Source: Lautropia sp. (GTDB taxonomy: Bacteria; Pseudomonadota; Gammaproteobacteria; Burkholderiales; Burkholderiaceae_E). Taken from it: a DNA stretch of 41,604 nt. Location: assembly GCA_030528325.1 (NCBI GenBank), contig JAUMZD010000029.1, forward strand, positions 1-41,604, given 5' to 3'. Below the pieces are notes generated by a model, which saw only the letters and a list, made by a program, of their open reading frames with translations, did no database searches and was not told the origin of the DNA. The translations under genes were made by a program, and so were the position numbers. Position 1 is the stretch's first letter. Every line of letters begins with the position of its first letter. This document shows positions 30,336-41,604 of this stretch, one piece after another.

Positions 30336-30506
30336 CCTAGGAGCCTGGGCGGCAGGAAAGTCGCGGGCTGCAAACCGGCCGCGCCGGCTCATTTTGCACC
30401 CGCTTCTTGCCCCATGGCACCGGCTATGGGGCGGCGAATCGGGCACGAACTGTGCTCGGCGGGGCCGGTTTTCGCCTTCGCGATTCCTACCGCCCAAGCT
30501 CCTAGG
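30336..30506 (-). repeat. 171-bp palindromic repeat, copy 2
   Basis: Same length and same CCTAGG ends as copy 1 (227-397), in inverted orientation, with about ten differences by eye. Read in the direction of the DUF4105 gene it has the same polarity that copy 1 has relative to the haemoglobin gene, and it ends 46 bp before the DUF4105 start. Confidence 0.9.
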
Positions 30507-31794: not shown

Positions 31795-33315
31795 TTACCT
31801 CCCACGCTCGGCCAGACACGCCACATCCAGCGCCTTCGGATCGGGGCTTTGCAGAAACTGCCCCAGCACCTGCGGCATGCACCCGGCGACGATGGCGTTA
31901 TGCCCCAGATGCGGCAGCAGCAGATGACGAGACTTCGGGAGTTTCGCCGCCAGCTCATCACCGAAGGACGGCGGGATGATCGGATCCTGCCCACCCGAGA
32001 CGATCAGCGTCGGAATGCTGGAAGCCAGCGGCTCATGAAAATCCTTCGCCAGCGGGCGTGAGGGCCACTGCTCGCAGCCGGCCTGGGACACGCGAATCAG
32101 CTCATGGATGCGCAACCAGTCCTGCATGACGGCAGGCGGTTGCGGACGTCGGCCCAGCTCTTCGGTGCAGGTGGTGGCATAGTAGGTGCCCAGCGGCACC
32201 ATCCGGGTCATGACCTGCTCGATGTTCATGCTGAGCAGCGTCGCCATCTCATACTGCTTCTGGCCCAGATGCGCGATCATCTCGGGCAACAGGGCTGCGG
32301 TCTCGGGCGCATAGGCCAGCATCCTGACCGTGCCGCCCAGCGCGGATTCCGTCAGTGTCCGGCTGATGATCCGCCCGGTGGCCGGATCGGGCACCTGTAC
32401 CGTCACCGGTTTGTCACGCAGGGCCGCCAGGGCCGCGATCAGCTGGGCGCGACTGTCACCCGCCTGCGCGGCGCAGGCCGGGTGCTGCTGGCAGGCCGCG
32501 AACACATCATCCAGCACGCGATACACGCGCGTCACGCCCTCGACGAGGCTACGATCGTTCGGCAGCGGAGAATCCAGCACCATCGAACGCACCCGATCCG
32601 GGTACGCCCGGGCATAGTGCTGCGCCACGCGCGTGCCGTAGGAAACGCCCAGCAGATTCATCGTCGGGAGCCCCATCGCCGCCCGGACGCGCTCCAGATC
32701 CCGCACGACATCCGGCGTGCCGTAATGGCGCACATCGGCCTTGTCGGCCAGCTGACGCGGGCAGCTGGCGATCAGCGCCTCGGTCTGCGGCAGTGTCAGG
32801 TCGATCAGGGGCGTGCCATCCGGCGACGCACAATCAAGACGGTTCGATGCCCCCGTGCCCCGCTGGTCGATCAACAGCACCGGATGATGCGACACGGCCG
32901 CCCCCAGCATGGGCGACAGCTGAGGCCAGCTTTCACGGGCCGACTGCCCCGGCCCGCCCGCCAGCAGCACGACCGGATCAGTCGCCGCAGGCTGGGCAGA
33001 GGCCGGCACCCACGATACTTGCAGGGTGACCTGGCGGCCTTTCGGCTGGTCGGGGTTCTCGGGCACCTCCAGCGTGCTGCACAACGCAGGCAGCTCGGCC
33101 GCTGGCATGCCGGGCATCTCGTCCCCTTTCAGCGTGCAGGGCTTGAAGCTGAGGCTTCCGATCTGCTGCGCCCTCAACGCAGATAGCTCTGCGCCAGCCT
33201 TCTCCTCGACTTCGCCTGCCCCCGATTGAAAAGCCCCCGCCTGAACACTCCAGCCGCACAACACCCCCAGCATCAGGGACTTTTGAATCCAAGGCCACAA
33301 CTTTCGATGACGCAT
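31795..33315 (-). CDS. Secreted alpha/beta hydrolase, S33 tripeptidyl-aminopeptidase-like
   Basis: A 506-residue protein with an N-terminal signal peptide ending near G-A-F. The alpha/beta hydrolase fold is clear: V-L-L-A-G-G-P-G-Q-S oxyanion loop, nucleophile Ser in G-V-S-Y-G-T near residue 225, V-L-D-S-P-L-P after it, catalytic Asp in S-G-G-Q-D-P, and His in P-H-L-G-H-N. A TAP-like C-terminal part is present. It probably cleaves N-terminal residues or short peptides in the periplasm. Ribosome site GGAGAAG precedes the ATG. A 96-bp piece of its 5' region is copied at 39621-39716. It stands next to, and in the same direction as, the C39 peptide locus; a link is not shown. Confidence 0.9.
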   Translation of the reverse strand: MRHRKLWPWIQKSLMLGVLCGWSVQAGAFQSGAGEVEEKAGAELSALRAQQIGSLSFKPCTLKGDEMPGMPAAELPALCSTLEVPENPDQPKGRQVTLQVSWVPASAQPAATDPVVLLAGGPGQSARESWPQLSPMLGAAVSHHPVLLIDQRGTGASNRLDCASPDGTPLIDLTLPQTEALIASCPRQLADKADVRHYGTPDVVRDLERVRAAMGLPTMNLLGVSYGTRVAQHYARAYPDRVRSMVLDSPLPNDRSLVEGVTRVYRVLDDVFAACQQHPACAAQAGDSRAQLIAALAALRDKPVTVQVPDPATGRIISRTLTESALGGTVRMLAYAPETAALLPEMIAHLGQKQYEMATLLSMNIEQVMTRMVPLGTYYATTCTEELGRRPQPPAVMQDWLRIHELIRVSQAGCEQWPSRPLAKDFHEPLASSIPTLIVSGGQDPIIPPSFGDELAAKLPKSRHLLLPHLGHNAIVAGCMPQVLGQFLQSPDPKALDVACLAERGR

Positions 33316-33409: not shown

Positions 33410-34510
33410 TCACCGCTGAAACGTGATCGGCACAGCATCCACGAACACCAGCAACGGATAACGCAAGGAAGGCTGGGGAAGTAGATGCAGTTCACGCACG
33501 CTGCCTGCCTGATCGAGCAGCCTGACCCTCATCGCCGCACGCTCCCCCGGGATGATCGTGGCTCGAACATCCACCACACCATCCTGCTCCTTCAGCCGGA
33601 AACACTCGGCATCTGCATGAAACGAAAACTCAAGCGGAATGCCCTCCACCTCGATCTGCCAAACCTCCAGCGGCACCCTGCCCTTCAAGGCACTCGCCAG
33701 CCTGAGCCAGGACACACGCGACAACCGGCGATACAGACTGGGGGATGAAGACGAGAATGACCGGGACAGCCGAAGCTCGTGGCGAGCAACCAGCCCCTGG
33801 ATCCACGCATCCCGCTCCCCGACCTCCTCTGACGACATCGACTCACCACTCAAGTTGGTCCCCTGCGCCTGCGCCGAATGATTGGGTCCTGGCTGGAAGG
33901 CCCGTCTCGAGAGGCTCAAGGCCGCCAGGCCCATCACGATCAGCACCACGACGATTGCAAGCTCATATGCCAGCAAACCATCCGCCTGCCTGCCAGCTTC
34001 ACGTCCGACCAGAAGCCACCAACCCAACCGAAGCACGATAAAGAGACATGCCAGACCGATCAGGCCATGACCCACCCGTCTGAAGCGGTTCGCCAGCGGG
34101 ATGGATGCTGGGCCTGACAGAGCTGACATCAGCTCCGGCAGAAAAATCTCGATCACGGCGAAAACGAATTGCATGCCCCCCCAGAAACTCCCTTGTTCAG
34201 AAGAACCCAAACCGTTTCCTGATACGCCCACCCTCGGGAACCAGCCCCCCTTCATGTTGACGATCAGCGAATATTCACCGGCCAGACCACGCCCGTCATC
34301 GATCAGACCCGAAACCCGGACATGACGACACGCCTCATCGTCATGGAAAACATCGATTTCCATCTGCGAATAATCATCAGCCCCCGGAACACCATGCTCG
34401 ACTGTGTGAGGAAGCCCCCAGGAGCCAGCCTTCGTCTGAAGATCCGGGTTGTCGCGCCAGAACCGGTGCACGGTTTCCTTGGCCACCGACAGAAGTTGAT
34501 CCTTGTCCAT
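33410..34510 (-). CDS. Membrane protein with a new N-terminal domain shared with the 36411 gene
   Basis: A 366-residue protein of unknown family. Residues 1-100 (starting M-D-K-D-Q-L-L-S-V-A-K-E-T-V-H-R-F-W-R-D-N-P-D-L) match, almost along the whole length, the 104-residue protein encoded at 36411-36725. Three hydrophobic segments follow at about 108-130, 148-170 and 180-202. The C-terminal 140 residues are a soluble beta-rich domain. The start at 34510 follows GGAG. It is the last gene of the putative peptide locus; membrane location and position make an immunity or accessory role possible, but nothing in the sequence proves it. Confidence 0.7.
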   Translation of the reverse strand: MDKDQLLSVAKETVHRFWRDNPDLQTKAGSWGLPHTVEHGVPGADDYSQMEIDVFHDDEACRHVRVSGLIDDGRGLAGEYSLIVNMKGGWFPRVGVSGNGLGSSEQGSFWGGMQFVFAVIEIFLPELMSALSGPASIPLANRFRRVGHGLIGLACLFIVLRLGWWLLVGREAGRQADGLLAYELAIVVVLIVMGLAALSLSRRAFQPGPNHSAQAQGTNLSGESMSSEEVGERDAWIQGLVARHELRLSRSFSSSSPSLYRRLSRVSWLRLASALKGRVPLEVWQIEVEGIPLEFSFHADAECFRLKEQDGVVDVRATIIPGERAAMRVRLLDQAGSVRELHLLPQPSLRYPLLVFVDAVPITFQR

Positions 34511-34526
34511 CTCCAACACCTGGCCC

Positions 34527-34736
34527 TCAGGGCAGCCCCCATTTGTTCCTGAGCAGCTTTGAAATACCGACACCCACGAAGGTGGAAAGCAGCGCTCGCC
34601 ACAGCCAGCGGGGATCGCCTTCCGGCACGCCCTCCAGCGGGCATAGCCAGGCGGCCACCATCAACACGGCGGCTGTCGATATGCCGATGATCAGCATCGA
34701 CATCATGAGAAGCAGCATATACGGCATTTTCTTCAC
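34527..34736 (-). CDS. Small membrane protein, unknown
   Basis: A 69-residue protein with one strong transmembrane helix (about 5-31) and a second weaker hydrophobic segment around 46-60. The start is GTG 34736 or ATG 34727; neither has a strong ribosome site. It ends 16 bp before the 366-residue membrane protein gene and starts right next to an inverted-repeat element. Small hydrophobic proteins next to bacteriocin genes often give immunity; here that is only a possibility. Confidence 0.5.
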   Translation of the reverse strand: MKKMPYMLLLMMSMLIIGISTAAVLMVAAWLCPLEGVPEGDPRWLWRALLSTFVGVGISKLLRNKWGLP

Positions 34737-34738
34737 TA

Positions 34739-34876
34739 TTAACAGACTGTTAAAATAAAGCCAGACAGCGGATCCATCATGAATATGGCAAAAAAATCAT
34801 GTCCGCAAATCAATGGGTTATGAGATGCACGTAGCGACGGGATGGCCGATTCCGGGGTATTTCAACAGCCTGTTAG
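34739..34876. repeat. 138-bp inverted-repeat element (MITE-like remnant)
   Basis: AACAGACTGTTAAAATA at 34741-34757 and, inverted, TATTTCAACAGCCTGTT at 34858-34874 match at 15 of 17 positions. The ends (TTAACAG, CTGTTAG) resemble IS ends. No transposase or gene is inside. It separates the 69- and 102-residue membrane protein genes. Confidence 0.6.
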
Positions 34877-34878
34877 AC

Positions 34879-35187
34879 TCAGAAGACATCATGCCCTTCT
34901 TTTCCGTTCGTCTTCGCTTTTTCCCTTTCTAAATCTTTGCAAGTATCAACCCAGAAGTACATTGGAATCCCACCAAAGAAAGAGATTGCCCCATAAGAAA
35001 AAGCCAAAATCAAGGGCTCAAAAGGCTGGCCGGAAGAATAATTAGCCACCCCATAGACAAAGCCAAAAAATGCCCCTAACAGGGAACATGTCTTTATAGC
35101 CCAGAAGAATCCCTTCTCCTTCTCTATCGCATAAGACGGAACGGACATAACTACCATGGCCACCAGTCCAAAAAAAAACCCTTCCAT
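34879..35187 (-). CDS. Small membrane protein, unknown (102 residues)
   Basis: A 102-residue protein with three hydrophobic stretches: about 3-20, 28-50 and 56-78, and a basic/acidic C-terminal tail. It is encoded just after the terminator-like hairpin that follows the last precursor gene. GC content is clearly below the flanking catabolic region. No family recognised. As with the 69-residue protein, an immunity role is possible by position only. Confidence 0.6.
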   Translation of the reverse strand: MEGFFFGLVAMVVMSVPSYAIEKEKGFFWAIKTCSLLGAFFGFVYGVANYSSGQPFEPLILAFSYGAISFFGGIPMYFWVDTCKDLEREKAKTNGKEGHDVF

Positions 35188-35226
35188 AAAGCCCTCAATT
35201 CATTCATAAGCTTTCAAGACAAGATC

Positions 35227-35266
35227 GAAAGAAATGCACTGAACTTTCGTCCAGTGCATTTCTTTC
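35227..35266 (-). terminator. Hairpin terminator after precursor C gene
   Basis: A perfect 15-bp inverted repeat (GAAAGAAATGCACTG at 35227-35241 and its complement at 35252-35266) around a 10-nt loop, 5 bp after the stop codon of the 35272 gene. The descending arm on the minus strand is T-rich, though there is no long T-tract after it. Confidence 0.65.
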
Positions 35267-35271
35267 ATCTT

Positions 35272-35748
35272 TTACCGGTTGAATCCGTAATGATTCAAAC
35301 CTCTCTGAATCGAATTATTCGCGGCGAGAAGGCCAGGTCTCCACGCAATATTCCCTGTGACGAACCCACCCGCGGCACGAACCAAAGGCCCTCCAATTGC
35401 CCCGGTAATAGCCCCTGCCAACGCAGCATTACGAAGACCTGCCTGGCTAAAAGATGCCCTGTGTGTCGCAGCATAATATACCGAGCTGATCAAACTATTC
35501 ATTGCCATACCCCCAAGAACCAAAGGAATGAACGCTCCTTGGGTTTCTTGCATCTCAGAACTTGGCAATGCCGCCAACTGCATCGGTTTCTCTCCCTGGT
35601 CGAACAACCCCTGAATGTCTTGCTGGCTAAAAACAGCCTGCAATTGCTGGGTTGGCAGCCGGCTTGCGGACATTTCCGCAGCCTGCGCCTGAACGGAGAC
35701 CATCCCCACGGTGGCCAGCACCAGCACGGTTTGTTTGAGCTTCTTCAT
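35272..35748 (-). CDS. Sec-exported precursor C with double-glycine-type leader
   Basis: A 158-residue protein. Residues 1 to about 23 form a Sec signal peptide (M-K-K-L-K-Q then hydrophobic, ending A-Q-A). A polar pro-segment follows and ends in L-P-S-S-E-M-Q-E-T-Q-G-A (61-72), fitting the C39 double-glycine leader positions L-12, E-8, M-7, T-4, G-2, A-1. The predicted product (73-158, 86 residues) is rich in Gly and Ala with G-x-x-x-G-like motifs (A-G-A-I-T-G-A-I-G-G) and N-I-A-W-R-P-G near the end, a motif nearly shared with precursor A. The start at 35748 follows AGGAG. A bacteriocin- or surface-peptide role is inferred. Confidence 0.7.
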   Translation of the reverse strand: MKKLKQTVLVLATVGMVSVQAQAAEMSASRLPTQQLQAVFSQQDIQGLFDQGEKPMQLAALPSSEMQETQGAFIPLVLGGMAMNSLISSVYYAATHRASFSQAGLRNAALAGAITGAIGGPLVRAAGGFVTGNIAWRPGLLAANNSIQRGLNHYGFNR

Positions 35749-35850
35749 ATAGACTCCTGTCTTGATCAACCTACAACAACAAGCCTCGAAAGACTCCCGA
35801 GGCACTCATGGGCAGTGTTGCCGCACCCCCATCTCTATTAGGCCTTGCCT
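35749..35850 (-). promoter_or_regulatory. Duplicated 5' leader of precursor C
   Basis: About 102 bp nearly identical to the leader of precursor A (37225-37327). It holds a hairpin (GCCTCG/CGAGGC, 35783-35803) and a 12-codon open frame on the minus strand (35809-35771; M-S-A-S-G-V-F-R-G-L-L-L, stop TAG) ending in three TTG Leu codons. The ribosome site of the main gene follows. Possibly a 5' UTR regulatory element; no known riboswitch class was recognised. Confidence 0.6.
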
Positions 35851-35898
35851 GCGCACTGCACTAGCAAGCGCCCTTTTCCTATCCCATAACCTTTCACC

Positions 35899-36306
35899 TC
35901 ACTGCTGAGCAGCTCTCCAAAGATGCCAGCCACCAATCCGAAAACATACATCACCCACAAGGCACCCTCCAGGTGGAAGGTTTCGGAAATTATGTTCCAA
36001 TCTCACATCCCAATATCGCCACCCTCCGGGCTCAAACATATAATTCCGGAAAGCCCCCTGCGTTTCTCTCATCTCCAAATCAGACAACCGGGCAAGCTCA
36101 GAAAGCTCTGAGCCTTCTTCAAAAATCTGTTCATTGGGCACACTCAGATCAGCCGGCAGATTTTCAACTGTTGCCAATTCAGCAGCCTGTTGCTTTCCAG
36201 GCGCCATAGACACTTCTTCCAATGCCCAGGAATTTGGCGCTAGAACGGCTACGATGGCCGCACTGGTCATCAGAGAAGATAGATAGAACGGTTTCCTATT
36301 TTTCAA
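35899..36306 (-). CDS. Sec-exported precursor B with double-glycine-type leader
   Basis: A 135-residue protein. The start is TTG at 36306, chosen because AGGAGA lies 7 bases upstream and the next residues (K-N-R-K then hydrophobic) make a normal signal peptide ending near N-S-W-A. The pro-segment ends L-S-D-L-E-M-R-E-T-Q-G-A (74-85), an almost ideal double-glycine leader. The predicted product is 50 residues (86-135), rich in Trp, Tyr, Phe, Arg and Gly, with two cysteines (115, 121) that could form a disulfide in the periplasm. It differs strongly from A and C after the leader, as expected for peptides sharing one peptidase. Confidence 0.7.
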   Translation of the reverse strand: MKNRKPFYLSSLMTSAAIVAVLAPNSWALEEVSMAPGKQQAAELATVENLPADLSVPNEQIFEEGSELSELARLSDLEMRETQGAFRNYMFEPGGWRYWDVRLEHNFRNLPPGGCLVGDVCFRIGGWHLWRAAQQ

Positions 36307-36410
36307 GACAAAGTCTCCTAGATTTCTTACCAACCAACCTCCAGCCTTTGCCTATCACGATGAGAACTCACACCATCATGATCAACCTGCCTTGGCCTCA
36401 GGTTCCAAAC

Positions 36411-36725
36411 TCAGAAGAACCAACCTTTTTTCTTGACTCTTCCCCCCTCGGAAACCAGTGCTCCCAACGGGTCTACGATGATGGTGTAATGCCCCTTGAG
36501 GCCGATACCATCCTCAACAAATGCCGATACTCTTACATTTACTTTTTCTGAGTCATCATACATGGCCTCAATTTCCATCTGGTAGTAACCTTCATCGCCC
36601 CAACGACCATGCTCGAATGACAAAGGCTGCCCCTCCTCGTCTGCCTTCGCACGAAGGTCAGGATTATCTCGCCAAAACCGATGAACAGCCTCCTTTGCAA
36701 GAGACAGAAGCTCTTCTTTATTCAT
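36411..36725 (-). CDS. Stand-alone copy of the new N-terminal domain
   Basis: A 104-residue soluble protein beginning M-N-K-E-E-L-L-S-L-A-K-E-A-V-H-R-F-W-R-D. It matches residues 1-100 of the 366-residue membrane protein (33410-34510) throughout, including Y-Q-M-E-I-E and the G-x-G-L-x-G-x-Y-x-x-I-V-x segment. No signal peptide. It lies between precursor genes A and B. Family not recognised. It could be a cytoplasmic partner of precursors, or an orphan immunity domain; both are guesses. Confidence 0.7.
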   Translation of the reverse strand: MNKEELLSLAKEAVHRFWRDNPDLRAKADEEGQPLSFEHGRWGDEGYYQMEIEAMYDDSEKVNVRVSAFVEDGIGLKGHYTIIVDPLGALVSEGGRVKKKGWFF

Positions 36726-36795
36726 GCTTTTCCCCACTTCTGGCTAGCGCCTACCACGGCACCTGCATGTATCAGGCGCCGTGCCTCACGCCAAT

Positions 36796-37224
36796 TTATG
36801 GCCGGAAGAAGGGCCGATCGGGCAGTGGAAGTCTGAAAACTTTCCCCGATCCCGAGACTCCTGGCCGCCAAATATTGGCTTGCAAGTGAGGAAGCCTTCC
36901 AAGCCGACCAAATGCATGATGCGCCGTGTGATGGGCAATTCTCATCATGTATGGCAAACCAATTCGCGCGAGACTCAATGTCACCGGCGCGAACCAAAGC
37001 ACCGCACCTTCCGTTGTCTTCATTTCATGGGCAGACAACACAGCAACCTGCATTTGCTGACTGGACTGCTCAAACATGAAACTCATGTCAGATCGAGTAA
37101 AAGAAACCGCTGGCCGCGCATTGTTCAGCGATACCATATCCTGTTGACTCGCAGCATAGGCTTGAGTAGACAACATGCTACCCGCCACAGTCAGTGTCAC
37201 AAGAGCTTTCTTAAGCTTCATCAT
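36796..37224 (-). CDS. Sec-exported precursor A with double-glycine-type leader
   Basis: A 142-residue protein. The signal peptide (M-M-K-L-K-K then hydrophobic, ending A-Y-A near 24) is followed by a pro-segment whose F-T-R-S-D-M-S-F-M-F-E-Q pattern resembles precursor C (F-S-Q-Q-D-I-Q-G-L-F-D-Q). The leader end L-S-A-H-E-M-K-T-T-E-G-A (63-74) fits the double-glycine consensus. The predicted product (75-142, 68 residues) has a hydrophobic N-terminal part, several His and Arg, and N-I-W-R-P-G near the middle. The ATG at 37224 follows GGGAG. It is the first gene after the C39 peptidase. Confidence 0.7.
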   Translation of the reverse strand: MMKLKKALVTLTVAGSMLSTQAYAASQQDMVSLNNARPAVSFTRSDMSFMFEQSSQQMQVAVLSAHEMKTTEGAVLWFAPVTLSLARIGLPYMMRIAHHTAHHAFGRLGRLPHLQANIWRPGVSGSGKVFRLPLPDRPFFRP

Positions 37225-37327
37225 GTAGACTCCCATCTTGGTCAAGATTACAACAACAAGCCTCGAAAGACTCCCGAGGCACTCATGGGCGGTGTTGCCG
37301 CACCCCCATCTTTGCCGGGCCTTGCCT
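37225..37327 (-). promoter_or_regulatory. Duplicated 5' leader of precursor A
   Basis: Nearly identical to 35749-35850. The hairpin is at 37260-37280. The same 12-codon frame is at 37286-37248, with stop TAA instead of TAG. The two copies diverge outside this block, so the duplicated unit is the transcribed leader rather than a whole gene. Confidence 0.6.
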
Positions 37328-37383
37328 ATGCCCCGATATGGGCATGTGCCCGGTTTTTTTGACTCACGCAACGATTGAAATCA

Positions 37384-38325
37384 TTACCACCAGCCTGGTC
37401 TTACACTAAGTTGCTCAACGGCAATACCACTTTGACGGCGAGGTGCTTTGGAGAAGTAGCCCTGAGCTATCTTGATTGACTTTCCAGCTTTTTGAGCTGA
37501 AGCCTTGGTAGTCCCCTCCTCACGCTCATGTTGAGCTGGCAATATGGCGAGAAACTTCCCAGCCAACGCCGGCGCCTTCTTGTCCTCCCGCGTCTGCCAC
37601 ATCTCCAGAAACTGCGCCCGGCTGTAGGTTCTGTTACCCAGGCTCGGGTCTGCCAACCAAACCGTGTTGGCATCGATGCCTCTCAGCACGCTGAAATGGT
37701 CATCCTTTCGGTGCTTCACATACACCACCACCGGAATCTTCAGCCGCGTGAGCTGCTCCCAGCTGGCGGCAAAGCCCTGCGCCCGAAAACCGAAGCCCGG
37801 CATCACGCGGGCCATGTCCTCGAAACTGGCCATGCCATCTTCCTTGGCCATCGCTTTCAGGATGGCCTCTTCGGTCGTGTTCTGACCATAGAACTGATTC
37901 AGCAAGGTGGCCAGTGACGCTGCTCCGCATGAGAAATCCTGATCCTGCTTCACGATTTTCTGGTCACGAAGCGTCTTCCAGCTTTTGACAGGAACCTGTC
38001 CGGCAATGGAATGCGTAGCCAGCAGCACGGCTTCCGGCCCAGGCTTCGGCACCGCCCGTTTTGGGGGCAGTTTTATCTCAGGCTTTTTCGCTTCCTTACG
38101 GTCTTTTACCTGCCCTTTCTTCTCTGAAGAAAGCTCTTGTTGGTGTTGCGACGAATCAACTCTGGACCCCGAATGCCCCTTCTCCTCGGCAGATCTGCTT
38201 CTCTTGGCTTGCTGCCGATCTGGGGCGTCGTTAGCCCACACCTCAGCAGTCGAACCAGAGCTGACCGCAAGAACTGCCATCACCCATCCAGCCTGCAGTG
38301 CGCCGGCCACACGTTCGGACTTCAT
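37384..38325 (-). CDS. Stand-alone periplasmic C39 peptidase
   Basis: A 313-residue protein with a signal peptide ending near V-W-A (about 31), a charged linker rich in Lys, Glu and Pro (35-95), and a C39 double-glycine peptidase domain at about 105-265. Catalytic Cys133 (D-F-S-C-G-A-A-S), His210 (K-D-D-H-F-S-V-L) and Asp226 (L-A-D-P-S-L-G) are intact; Gln127 is placed for the oxyanion hole. There is no ABC transporter part, unlike bacteriocin exporters, so it should act in the periplasm. FapD of the Fap amyloid system is a known periplasmic C39 relative. Its start overlaps the barrel gene stop (ATGA). The adjacent precursors with E-M-x-x-T-x-G-A are its likely substrates. Confidence 0.88.
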   Translation of the reverse strand: MKSERVAGALQAGWVMAVLAVSSGSTAEVWANDAPDRQQAKRSRSAEEKGHSGSRVDSSQHQQELSSEKKGQVKDRKEAKKPEIKLPPKRAVPKPGPEAVLLATHSIAGQVPVKSWKTLRDQKIVKQDQDFSCGAASLATLLNQFYGQNTTEEAILKAMAKEDGMASFEDMARVMPGFGFRAQGFAASWEQLTRLKIPVVVYVKHRKDDHFSVLRGIDANTVWLADPSLGNRTYSRAQFLEMWQTREDKKAPALAGKFLAILPAQHEREEGTTKASAQKAGKSIKIAQGYFSKAPRRQSGIAVEQLSVRPGWW

Positions 38326-39218
38326 AAAGCAGCTCCCTTTCCGAAGGTATACAGCCAGTTCACCCGCAGTTCAGCACCATGGTTACCGGAAGCATTCATC
38401 TTGAATGTCGCATTGAGCGTATTACCCCGGTCGAAGCCATAACCCACACCCACCAGAAGGTCCGACTGACTGCGACCAATCCCCTGAGCCTGACCATTGG
38501 CACGTTCTGCGCCCCGGCGTGTCCATTGCATACCAGTTGTCAATGTGACCCGGTCGTTGACCGCAAAACCGACGGATGGCGAAAGCATCAACAGATTACC
38601 CTGTTGCAGAGTACCTTCAGCCGTGTCATGGCTACCATTGATCCGGTAGCCACCTGTCATTGAAAAGACAATCGGATCAATGGCCTTGTAGGTGGTAAAA
38701 CCCAGCATGGCAGACTTGAAAGATTCTGTGCCACCCTGCACCCGCTCACTGAGGGCGACTTCGACAAACCCCAACCAGGCGGGGTAGTCATCTTCTTCAC
38801 GAAACTGATGGTTCAGCCCCAACCAGGCATCAGCAAAGTGGTTTTCCCGATGCTTCCGCCGGCCTTCAACATCACGAATCCGCTCACCTGTGTAGAGGTA
38901 GCTGGTGCGTGCATACAGCTCCGTCTTCGCCGTCAATCCGTAGCGCAGGCCAAAAGTACCAACCAGTGTGTCACGATTGCTCGAACGCTCACCCATGGCA
39001 GAGGGCACCGTCACGAAGGAGGCTGGCCCTGTCTGAATGGAAATTGGCTCCCCGGCAGAAAAGCCGGTCTGATCAGCATTCGCATGCGTGACCGACAGAT
39101 CCAGCTTGACCTTTCCCTTGTCAGTCACGAGATCCTCAACGGTCAAGGGCAGATCTGCCCAGGCAGGCACGGCCTGGATGGCCAACAGCCCCAGAAGAAC
39201 ACACTGTGGACGATGCAT
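38322..39218 (-). CDS. Outer-membrane beta-barrel protein of the C39 locus
   Basis: A 298-residue protein with a signal peptide (ending A-W-A near 21) followed by alternating polar/hydrophobic strands with aromatic girdle residues and Gly-rich turns (for example L-R-Y-G-L-T-A-K-T-E-L-Y-A-R). The last strand is L-R-V-N-W-L-Y-T-F. It resembles transporters of the phenol meta-pathway barrel family, to which FapF also belongs, but lacks FapF's N-terminal coiled coil. The start at 39218 follows GAGGAG; a nearer-upstream ATG at 39222 is out of frame. It is the first gene of the locus, coupled to the C39 peptidase, and may export the processed peptides. Confidence 0.8.
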   Translation of the reverse strand: MHRPQCVLLGLLAIQAVPAWADLPLTVEDLVTDKGKVKLDLSVTHANADQTGFSAGEPISIQTGPASFVTVPSAMGERSSNRDTLVGTFGLRYGLTAKTELYARTSYLYTGERIRDVEGRRKHRENHFADAWLGLNHQFREEDDYPAWLGFVEVALSERVQGGTESFKSAMLGFTTYKAIDPIVFSMTGGYRINGSHDTAEGTLQQGNLLMLSPSVGFAVNDRVTLTTGMQWTRRGAERANGQAQGIGRSQSDLLVGVGYGFDRGNTLNATFKMNASGNHGAELRVNWLYTFGKGAAL

Positions 39219-39486
39219 CCATGTCTCCTCAACATTTCTTGGTTTTTTCGCTGATGTTTTGGAAATACTAACCAAAAAAGAGACAAAGGTGCGCAAAATC
39301 CACAATTCCCACTGAATCTTCATAATTTCTTCATCTTCTTCACATTCATCACATCCAGGCAAGTCGCCCAGGAAGGCTGTCTCTGACCCAAAGGATCCTG
39401 TCGGACAGACACTGCCATGCTCAGTATGGCAACCCAGCAAACAAGGAAGCAAGCATACATAATTATTAGTCAGCAAATTTATGCGT
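39219..39486. other. Upstream region of the barrel/C39 operon
   Basis: A 268-bp AT-richer stretch with no supported gene. It should carry the promoter for the minus-strand operon. Long T/C-rich runs (39300-39350) are seen; no clear -35/-10 pair or operator was found. Confidence 0.4.
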
Positions 39487-39619
39487 GCCCAGCGGCTTGG
39501 GCGGCAGACATCGCGAAAGCGGAAATCGGCCTCGCCGGGCACAGTTTGTGCCCGATTTGCCGCCCTATAGCTGGCGCTCTGGGGCAGGAAGCGGGTGCAA
39601 AATGGGTCGGCGCGACCGG
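39487..39619 (+). repeat. 171-bp palindromic repeat, decayed partial copy 3
   Basis: Similar to copy 1 in the same orientation from near the left end (GGCTTGGGCGGCAG) through the middle (GCACAGTTTGTGCCCGAT) to about GGCGCGACCGG. It lacks both CCTAGG ends and breaks off exactly where the hydrolase-derived fragment starts, so a recombination or end-joining event probably joined them. Confidence 0.75.
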
Positions 39620-39620
39620 C

Positions 39621-39716
39621 GGCATGCAGGGCATCTCCTGACCCTTCAGCATGCAGGGTCTGAAGCTGAGGCTTCCGATCTGCTGCGCCCTCAACGCAGA
39701 CGGCTCTGCGCCAGCC
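39621..39716 (-). pseudogene. Fragment copied from the S33 hydrolase gene
   Basis: Matches 33104-33199, the part encoding the start of the mature hydrolase, with about eleven mismatches in 96 bases by eye. On the minus strand it reads S-A-L-R-A-Q-Q-I-G-S-L-S-F-R-P-C-M-L-K-G, against L-S-F-K-P-C-T-L-K-G in the intact gene. No other part of the hydrolase is present, so it is a remnant. Confidence 0.8.
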
Positions 39717-41555: not shown

Positions 41556-41604
41556 TGGTGGAGAGGGTTGGATTCGAACCAACGTAGGCGTAAGCCAACA
41601 GATT
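41556..41604 (-). tRNA. tRNA-Tyr (GTA), 5' part outside window
   Basis: The 3' part on the minus strand: AATCTG of the anticodon stem, a long class II variable arm (TTGGCTTACGCCTA), T-arm with GGTTCGAATCC, and an encoded ACCA. The anticodon itself lies just beyond the window, but the class II arm and the order before tRNA-Gly(TCC) point to Tyr. Confidence 0.88.

Follow-up and report, generated by a model that had tools for sequence, protein, structure and literature searches.

The nap island of Neisseria gonorrhoeae is a low-GC acquired island that encodes a C39 peptidase (NapP), a FapF-like barrel (NapF), small cationic double-glycine (GG) peptides (NapABC) and an immunity-type gene (NapI, LagC-like), along with NapR and NapH; it lies between genes for histidyl-tRNA synthase and a pseudouridine synthase, and its mature peptides are 16 to 36 amino acids (aa) long (PMC11798529). 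That paper proposes cutting in the periplasm, suggests NapH for the inner membrane and leaves the inner-membrane step open, and its main text names neither Sec nor a signal peptide (PMC11798529). In the Fap system, the periplasmic C39 peptidase FapD was shown by experiment to be required for secretion, and mass spectrometry of FapE returned no peptides from the first 70 or so residues (PMC5557850). Here we describe a locus of Lautropia sp. (contig JAUMZD010000029.1; the window is the whole stretch analysed, 41,604 nucleotides) in which three small precursors, each with a predicted Sec signal and a second, double-glycine-type leader, are encoded beside a stand-alone C39 peptidase and a predicted outer-membrane barrel. 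The locus is probably a nap-type, Sec-dependent polymorphic toxin or bacteriocin island, with Sec export, a periplasmic C39 cut, exit through the barrel and neighbouring small genes for immunity. The export route agrees with the interpretation of a first-pass annotation of the same DNA, which is supported overall; its choice of Fap as the nearest known parallel has given way to the gonococcal nap island, and the toxin or bacteriocin reading of the products is new to it. The small ORFs beside the precursors, a second barrel/C39 copy on another contig (C11) and an ABC-fused C39 elsewhere in the genome are likewise additions to that annotation.

Precursors, peptidase and barrel of the locus

Double-glycine leaders follow the consensus L-12, E-8, M-7, T-4, G-2 and A-1. 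Among the 450 window open reading frames (ORFs; six-frame, at least 30 aa), the corresponding pattern LxxxEMxxTxGA occurs three times, once in each of the precursors sp1, sp2 and sp3 (Table 1), and always roughly 40 residues behind a hydrophobic, Sec-signal-like N-terminus. When the part of the respective precursor behind residue 24 was shuffled, the motif arose in 2, 3 or 4 of 200,000 shuffles. The association of three leader-bearing precursors with the C39 peptidase and the barrel is not due to chance. A Sec-type signal followed by a second leader, as first annotated, is confirmed for all three proteins, with the signals predicted, and the first core residues proposed then (F73, F86 and V75) agree with the motif positions. 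The cores are small and cationic, as are the gonococcal GG peptides. By profile search, sp3 matches the precursor profile at an expectation value (E) of 7e-38, being itself a row of that profile. A structure model of sp1 is all-helical with three core helices, and its low confidence (predicted template modelling score, pTM, 0.29) makes it a hint only.

The C39 protein matches PF03412 with 82.7 bits and, over the same stretch, PF12385 with 21.1 bits (cut-off 19). In the Pfam search of its 313 residues, the ATP-binding cassette (ABC) part of the fused microcin exporters is missing. Cys133, His210, Asp226 and Gln127, which we take to be the catalytic residues, are all present, in keeping with the earlier description of a residue-complete C39 protein with its own predicted signal peptide and no transporter part. 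Its gene overlaps that of the barrel by 4 bp, as expected from the coupling noted before. Among 4,106 candidates, 974 proteins are related to the window C39 at E 1e-10, and the closest named matches include a Lautropia C39 (P0009); a named N. gonorrhoeae C39 is 57% identical. The same genome holds a second barrel/C39 copy (G000:C11:1-1293, L048), with a barrel 79% identical and the start of the C39 gene meeting the contig end.

The barrel protein matches PF13557 with 26.8 bits (cut-off 22). An AlphaFold model built from 7 sequences reached a mean predicted local distance difference test score of 63.9 and a pTM of 0.64, and its top 18 Protein Data Bank matches are all FapF chains (E 9.3e-11 to 5.7e-8; template modelling score, TM, 0.57 to 0.73). 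The COG4313 channel 4rl8 comes next (TM 0.63 to 0.72, E 1.9e-7), followed by other porins with lower TM. By sequence, the barrel is 40% identical over 164 aa to the barrel-like ORF of a gonococcal nap site and 41.5% identical over 289 aa to a NapF-type barrel from another nap-type site (L061).

The gonococcal nap site, read from one named record with the HisS and pseudouridine-synthase flanks, carries a NapP-type C39 that is 56% identical to that of the window over 198 aa, together with a barrel-like ORF of just 180 aa and small ORFs. Two of these small ORFs are 97 to 98% identical to partner ORFs of other loci (L060 and L091). Moreover, three loci (L058, L060 and L061) lie between nap-type flank genes and combine a C39 and a barrel with a precursor whose N-terminus is signal-like and whose leader reads EMKETEGA. 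As both the C39 and the barrel of the window are homologous to their nap-site counterparts, we regard the nap island as a nearer parallel than Fap. The two share a stand-alone C39 and a FapF-like barrel beside small cationic GG peptides (PMC11798529). They differ in their products: the mature Nap peptides have 16 to 36 aa, whereas the window cores have 50 to 86 aa and sit in precursors of 135 to 158 aa with predicted Sec signal and leader (PMC11798529). The window island also has other chromosomal neighbours.

Leader conservation and co-occurrence across genomes

A homologue search with an 11-row alignment returned 357 precursor relatives, the best 120 of which were analysed. A set of 75 precursors (A3) was assembled from 14 found at loci and 61 chosen from these 120, one of them being the window's own sp2 again. 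The leader pattern fits 72 of the 75, and a slightly different pattern fits 116 of the 120 listed; the other four comprise two with EMMETEGA, one with KAMKDTQGA and one without a proper N-terminus. For the 116, pairwise identity averages 73% within the 20-residue leader as against 37% in the 45 residues ahead of it and 37% in the core, a contrast that is partly selection, because the homologues were found by a profile containing the leader. The NCBIfam profile BRANT (His-rich) matches 12 of the 75 precursors (best E 5.9e-6).

To relate precursors to peptidases, C39 was sought at E 1e-15 in an order sample of 399 genomes, the window's own included. It is present in 48 of these, with more than 170 bits in 10 genomes (the clade of the window), 123 bits in one and 58 to 91 bits in the remainder. 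The precursor profile (A1), for which at most the best 9 candidates per genome were scored, matches 8 of the 399 genomes, all of them among the 10 with a close C39, and all 14 precursor matches lie within 3.8 kb of a clade C39. The two close-C39 genomes without a match are G195, in which the start of the contig truncates the locus, and G089, in which inspection showed no precursor. Profile rows had come from G000, G142, G178 and G292, and none from G205, G235, G299 or G321. In Neisseria, where every candidate was scored, C39 and precursor are each found in 10 of 46 genomes, and the ten are identical; one of them (G292) had contributed profile rows. Such an overlap would have a chance of 1/C(46,10) = 2.5e-10 if species were independent. 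Within the window's genus, both occur in the same 4 of 9 genomes, two of which (G000 and G142) had contributed rows. The family of G178 has precursors in 11 of 324 genomes, scored on at most the best 11 candidates per genome and with a C39 search that covered part of it.

At the level of loci, 45 stretches of DNA, many of which had been selected around a C39, were compared. Precursors are present on 36 of them, with 50 ORFs matching the profile; six matches without the motif (core-only pieces, shifted or changed copies, and one with EMKETEGL) were set aside. For the remaining 44 precursors, the same stretch carries a C39 in 38 cases and a barrel in 39. Among stretches selected mostly by precursor matches (L076-L094), a C39 is present for 15 of 21 motif-bearing precursors. 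Homologous loci without the motif, which the first-pass annotation had named as counterevidence, were looked for; precursor and C39 co-occur genome by genome, and a few C39 loci show no detectable precursor (G089, L067, L069, L074 and the gonococcal L100 and L102).

More distant relatives show a similar arrangement. In a class sample of 369 genomes, C39 at E 1e-25 is found in six genomes besides the window's own, and on ten stretches from these six, barrels occur in five genomes and not in G738. In four class genomes (G706, G562, G604 and G481, the last on 4 of 5 stretches), there are proteins that combine a signal-like start with a leader resembling LxxxEMxxTxG, which in some is followed by more than 200 residues; G738, G637 and one G481 stretch showed no such protein. 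G481 has six C39 matches, and among its five stretches L071-L075, four have a barrel match and four a Sec-plus-leader protein of 82 to 315 aa. The system is also carried on Acinetobacter plasmids: L096 encodes a barrel (30% identical to that of the window), two precursors and a C39 (55%), while on the 6.3-kb L095 a precursor and a C39 are accompanied by part of a barrel where the record ends. A conserved membrane protein with FPRWQSLL near its start directly precedes C39 in L003 (5339-5923), L038, L040 and L042. The window showed no such protein, and the copy in L003 matched no Pfam family at E 1e-4.

The leader and the presence of a C39 enzyme are shared with class II microcins and their ABC-C39 exporters, which raises the alternative that an ABC-fused C39 elsewhere in the genome cuts and exports the precursors like any class II microcin, with the local C39 and barrel serving otherwise. 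The genome does encode such an ABC-fused C39, whose Cys motif looks intact by eye; the leader is similar to those of classical double-glycine peptides; and the class IIb bacteriocin model TIGR03949 matches 11 of the 75 relatives at E up to 0.1 (best 5.3e-5), though none of the window precursors at E 1. Set against this, a predicted Sec signal precedes the leader, the window C39 has no ABC part, and it is the stand-alone C39, the type surveyed, that tracks the precursors genome by genome and mostly stands beside them (38 of 44). We consider this alternative very improbable.

Core exchange, partner genes and the nature of the products

Behind the conserved leader, cores have been exchanged. In 473 of 6,555 precursor pairs, the cores are at least 60% alike and the pre-leader parts at most 40% alike, and the reverse exchange is seen at 80% and 35% in 233 pairs. 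One relative (P0165) has its first 70 or so residues equal to those of the L037 precursor from the window's genus, and carries the core type of L043:3643, from a Neisseria locus. This reads as a constant export part, predicted Sec signal plus leader, that carries interchangeable cores of 50 to 86 aa here and more than 100 aa in some relatives.

The core type of L043:3643 links these precursors to contact-dependent inhibition (CDI) and Rhs polymorphic toxins. Its last ~67 residues match the extreme C-terminus of two proteins, a Pannonibacter haemagglutinin-repeat protein (55%, E 9e-16) and a Neorhizobium RHS protein (47%, E 2e-10), as well as a Hymenobacter DUF6443 protein about 40 codons before its end (51%, E 7e-12). 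The delivery part differs, being a predicted Sec signal and leader in the window precursors, and no CdiA, CdiB or Rhs scaffold was seen by eye among the listed window ORFs. An 82-aa ORF behind the Pannonibacter gene equals the 82-aa partner in L043 in length and place, with no BLAST match between them at E 0.01. Cdz of Caulobacter is reportedly a type I secretion substrate, exported with the help of a C39 ABC transporter. It resembles the present locus in having glycine-zipper bacteriocin proteins in a Gram-negative (PMC5380434).

Particular core types are followed by particular small genes. Neisseria cores ending in GKHKR or GKHRR precede a hydrophobic protein of 94 to 96 aa (L043, L060), those ending in RVWRR another partner family (L043, L062), and WRP-type cores a third (L004, L006, L039, L077-L081). 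Cores ending in HVWYG plus 2 or 3 residues are followed by soluble proteins in the window's genus (L037), in Neisseria (L059) and on an Acinetobacter plasmid (L096), and these soluble partners are weakly related (23%, E 5e-6; 28%, E 7e-5). Small hydrophobic ORFs stand behind many relatives' precursors as well. In L059 and L060 there are relatives of these partners for which no core of the corresponding type was detected, and L102 likewise has partner ORFs without a detectable core. The products resemble polymorphic toxins or bacteriocins that come with partner genes; the precursors are likely antibacterial toxins, and the neighbouring small genes likely give immunity. Eight further proteins, precursors and two partner ORFs, gave no Pfam family above cut-off, and the core of L091:6693 no solved-structure match better than E 0.4. 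Anti-phage defence was considered and rejected, as PADLOC gave no match at E 0.01 for 8 proteins.

A different view is that Sec, C39 and barrel export surface or biofilm proteins that assemble outside the cell, subunits of the Fap/Fil kind, with the small neighbours as chaperones. Fap and the window share a periplasmic-type C39 and a barrel of similar predicted fold (PMC5557850), and FapD and FilB are the closest NCBIfam models of the C39. The bit scores of 92.6 for FapD and 71.8 for FilB are, however, far under the cut-offs of 330 and 475. The window precursors also have a canonical leader, whereas Fap proteins are stated to have none (PMC5557850), and a window barrel of 298 aa leaves little room for the coiled-coil region of FapF. 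No amyloid-type or N/Q-rich repeats were seen by eye in precursors or cores, and no Fap family is among the NCBIfam matches listed, so that the earlier statement that these are not amyloid-repeat proteins stands. In addition, the cores are variable and swapped, one type is the tip of CdiA/Rhs-type proteins, and partner ORFs occur without a detectable core (L059, L060, L102), all of which make a surface role decidedly unlikely. Amyloid subunits in particular were not a first choice, with model cut-offs unreached and repeats lacking by eye. In favour of such a role, some weaker, FapD-like C39 loci, L050, L052, L055 and L056, also neighbour signal-peptide proteins with GG motifs. The Sec proteins of these loci have other GG-type motifs (e.g., LASLRGG) and partly repeat-rich cores; perhaps the Fil/Fap branch also uses second leaders.

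To quantify the pairing of cores and partners, we took the 44 precursors, less 3 near-identical ones and 6 without a downstream ORF, and compared the remaining 35 in 595 pairs. Core and downstream ORF are both related in 24 pairs, the core only in 110, the partner only in 1 and neither in 460; none of 20,000 shuffles reached 24 doubly related pairs. This pairing is partly due to common descent. Related cores show no related partner in those 110 pairs, and the core comparison was made without composition correction, so matches between glycine-rich cores are inflated.

These limits weigh against a toxin-immunity island, and there are others. The three cores of the window match no toxin family in Pfam or NCBIfam, and sp2 lacks a partner ORF of its own, there being no ORF of at least 45 aa between sp2 and sp1. 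The signal-peptide calls come from visual inspection and a home-made rule, the barrel model reaches medium confidence with 4rl8 fitting nearly as well, and leaders could be cut in the cytoplasm by the ABC-fused C39 of the genome. A precursor with this leader was not found at the one gonococcal nap site, where C39 and a short barrel ORF are present. Elsewhere in the same gonococcal record, a precursor with signal-like start and EMKETEGA adjoins a 288-aa barrel ORF with no C39 on the 12-kb stretch (L101), and the 11.5-kb stretch around a further C39 (L100) contains no barrel and no precursor. Order-wide, precursors may have been missed, since at most 9 candidates per genome were scored. Finally, 6 of the 21 precursors in the precursor-selected stretches have no C39 on the stretch (L079, L080, L083, L089, L090, L093); the contigs of L083 and L090 measure 4.1 and 6.5 kb, and G858, the source genome of L079 and L080, has a further precursor locus (L081) that does include a C39.

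The Nap peptides themselves did not inhibit the bacteria tested and acted in autolysis of the producer (PMC11798529). By extension, the products described here could act mainly on the producer, in a programmed lysis of the kind proposed for the gonococcus, rather than on competitors. We judge this unlikely, as core/partner pairing, core exchange, core-less partners, plasmid carriage and a CdiA/Rhs-type tip are the usual marks of competition toxins.

Layout of the island and a proposed export route

The ORF list agrees with the gene set and coordinates annotated before (Table 1). Transcription on the minus strand runs from barrel and C39 through sp3 and sp2 to sp1, with small ORFs between and behind the precursors. 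The candidate immunity protein behind sp3 has no Pfam family above cut-off and no NCBIfam family.

Table 1. Genes and leader elements of the island (window coordinates)
Feature	Position	Strand	Remarks
Predicted outer-membrane barrel, NapF/FapF-like, 298 aa	38322..39218	-	signal peptide predicted, mature start DLPLTVEDL
Stand-alone C39 cysteine peptidase, 313 aa	37384..38325	-	predicted signal peptide and charged linker
79-bp leader element ahead of sp3	37249..37327	-	hairpin GCCTCG..CGAGGC; 92% identical to the copy ahead of sp1
Precursor sp3, 142 aa	36796..37224	-	predicted Sec signal; leader LSAHEMKTTEGA at 37003-37038; 68-aa core from V75, isoelectric point (pI) 12.0
Small protein, soluble by eye, candidate immunity protein	36411..36722	-	first ORF behind sp3
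Precursor sp2, 135 aa	35899..36306 (alternative start 36333)	-	predicted Sec signal; leader LSDLEMRETQGA at 36052-36087; 50-aa core from F86, pI 8.9
79-bp leader element ahead of sp1	35772..35850	-	
Precursor sp1, 158 aa	35272..35748	-	predicted Sec signal; leader LPSSEMQETQGA at 35533-35568; glycine/alanine-rich 86-aa core from F73, pI 11.7
Small hydrophobic protein, membrane-type by eye, candidate immunity protein	34879..35187	-	behind sp1; from position and sequence
Small hydrophobic ORF	34527..34736	-	without Pfam family
366-aa protein, N-terminal part paralogous to sp3 partner	33410..34510	-	48.5% identity over 103 aa to the 36411-36722 reading frame

The hairpin of the 79-bp element has a GGAGTCT stretch that echoes a ribosome-binding site, and its stem is found again ahead of precursors in L037, L038 and L088. 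No Rfam family was matched, and the folding energy of four copies is not unusual (z -0.1 to -1.3). The element is a possible regulatory site or stretch of recombination homology. The island (33900-39500) has a GC content of about 0.49 to 0.60, compared with about 0.65 around it. Two copies of a 107-bp direct repeat, 87% identical, flank it at 33093-33199 and 39610-39716. Positions 39488-39619 and 30375-30506 are copies of a dispersed genome repeat of about 130 bp with at least 59 matches (40 of 259 candidates scored), and because this repeat adjoins the 107-bp one, the direct repeats were set aside as island borders. Directly behind sp1, 35225-35268 form a strong palindrome that is terminator-like by eye, with below-threshold microRNA matches in Rfam. 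At the window edge, 41556-41604 on the minus strand give a below-threshold match to the end of transfer-messenger RNA (18.8 bits versus 47, E 1.9e-4).

In the proposed route, the precursors would cross the inner membrane by Sec, as their signals suggest. The C39 peptidase would then cut after GA in the periplasm, a step suggested by the leader, the signal-like start of the peptidase and the analogy with FapD, for which action in the periplasm was shown (PMC5557850). By analogy with FapF, the cut cores would exit through the barrel; they may then act on neighbouring bacteria, from which the partner genes would protect. Speculatively, the producer would be protected by leader and toxin staying together until they reach the periplasm.

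More tentatively, and close to evenly divided in our own judgment, we suggest that Sec, a periplasmic C39 and a FapF-like barrel may form one general Gram-negative secretion route, as yet without a name. Its main cargo would be polymorphic toxins against bacteria, among them CdiA/Rhs tips released from their giant carriers. Fap amyloid and gonococcal nap would be special cases, and the gonococcal nap site examined here would be a partly decayed copy with orphan immunity genes. Among the papers listed from the open-licence literature, we noticed none on a Sec-plus-C39 toxin route beyond nap and Fap.

If the island works as proposed, double-glycine processing would extend beyond the cytoplasm, with a second leader behind a Sec signal, activation in the periplasm and exit via a barrel. 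The Sec signal on the precursors of relatives would then account for the passage of nap-type peptides across the inner membrane, and one pathway would link amyloid and toxin secretion. With 974 C39 relatives and 357 precursor relatives, some on plasmids, this would point to a wide range of small secreted proteins that await characterisation.

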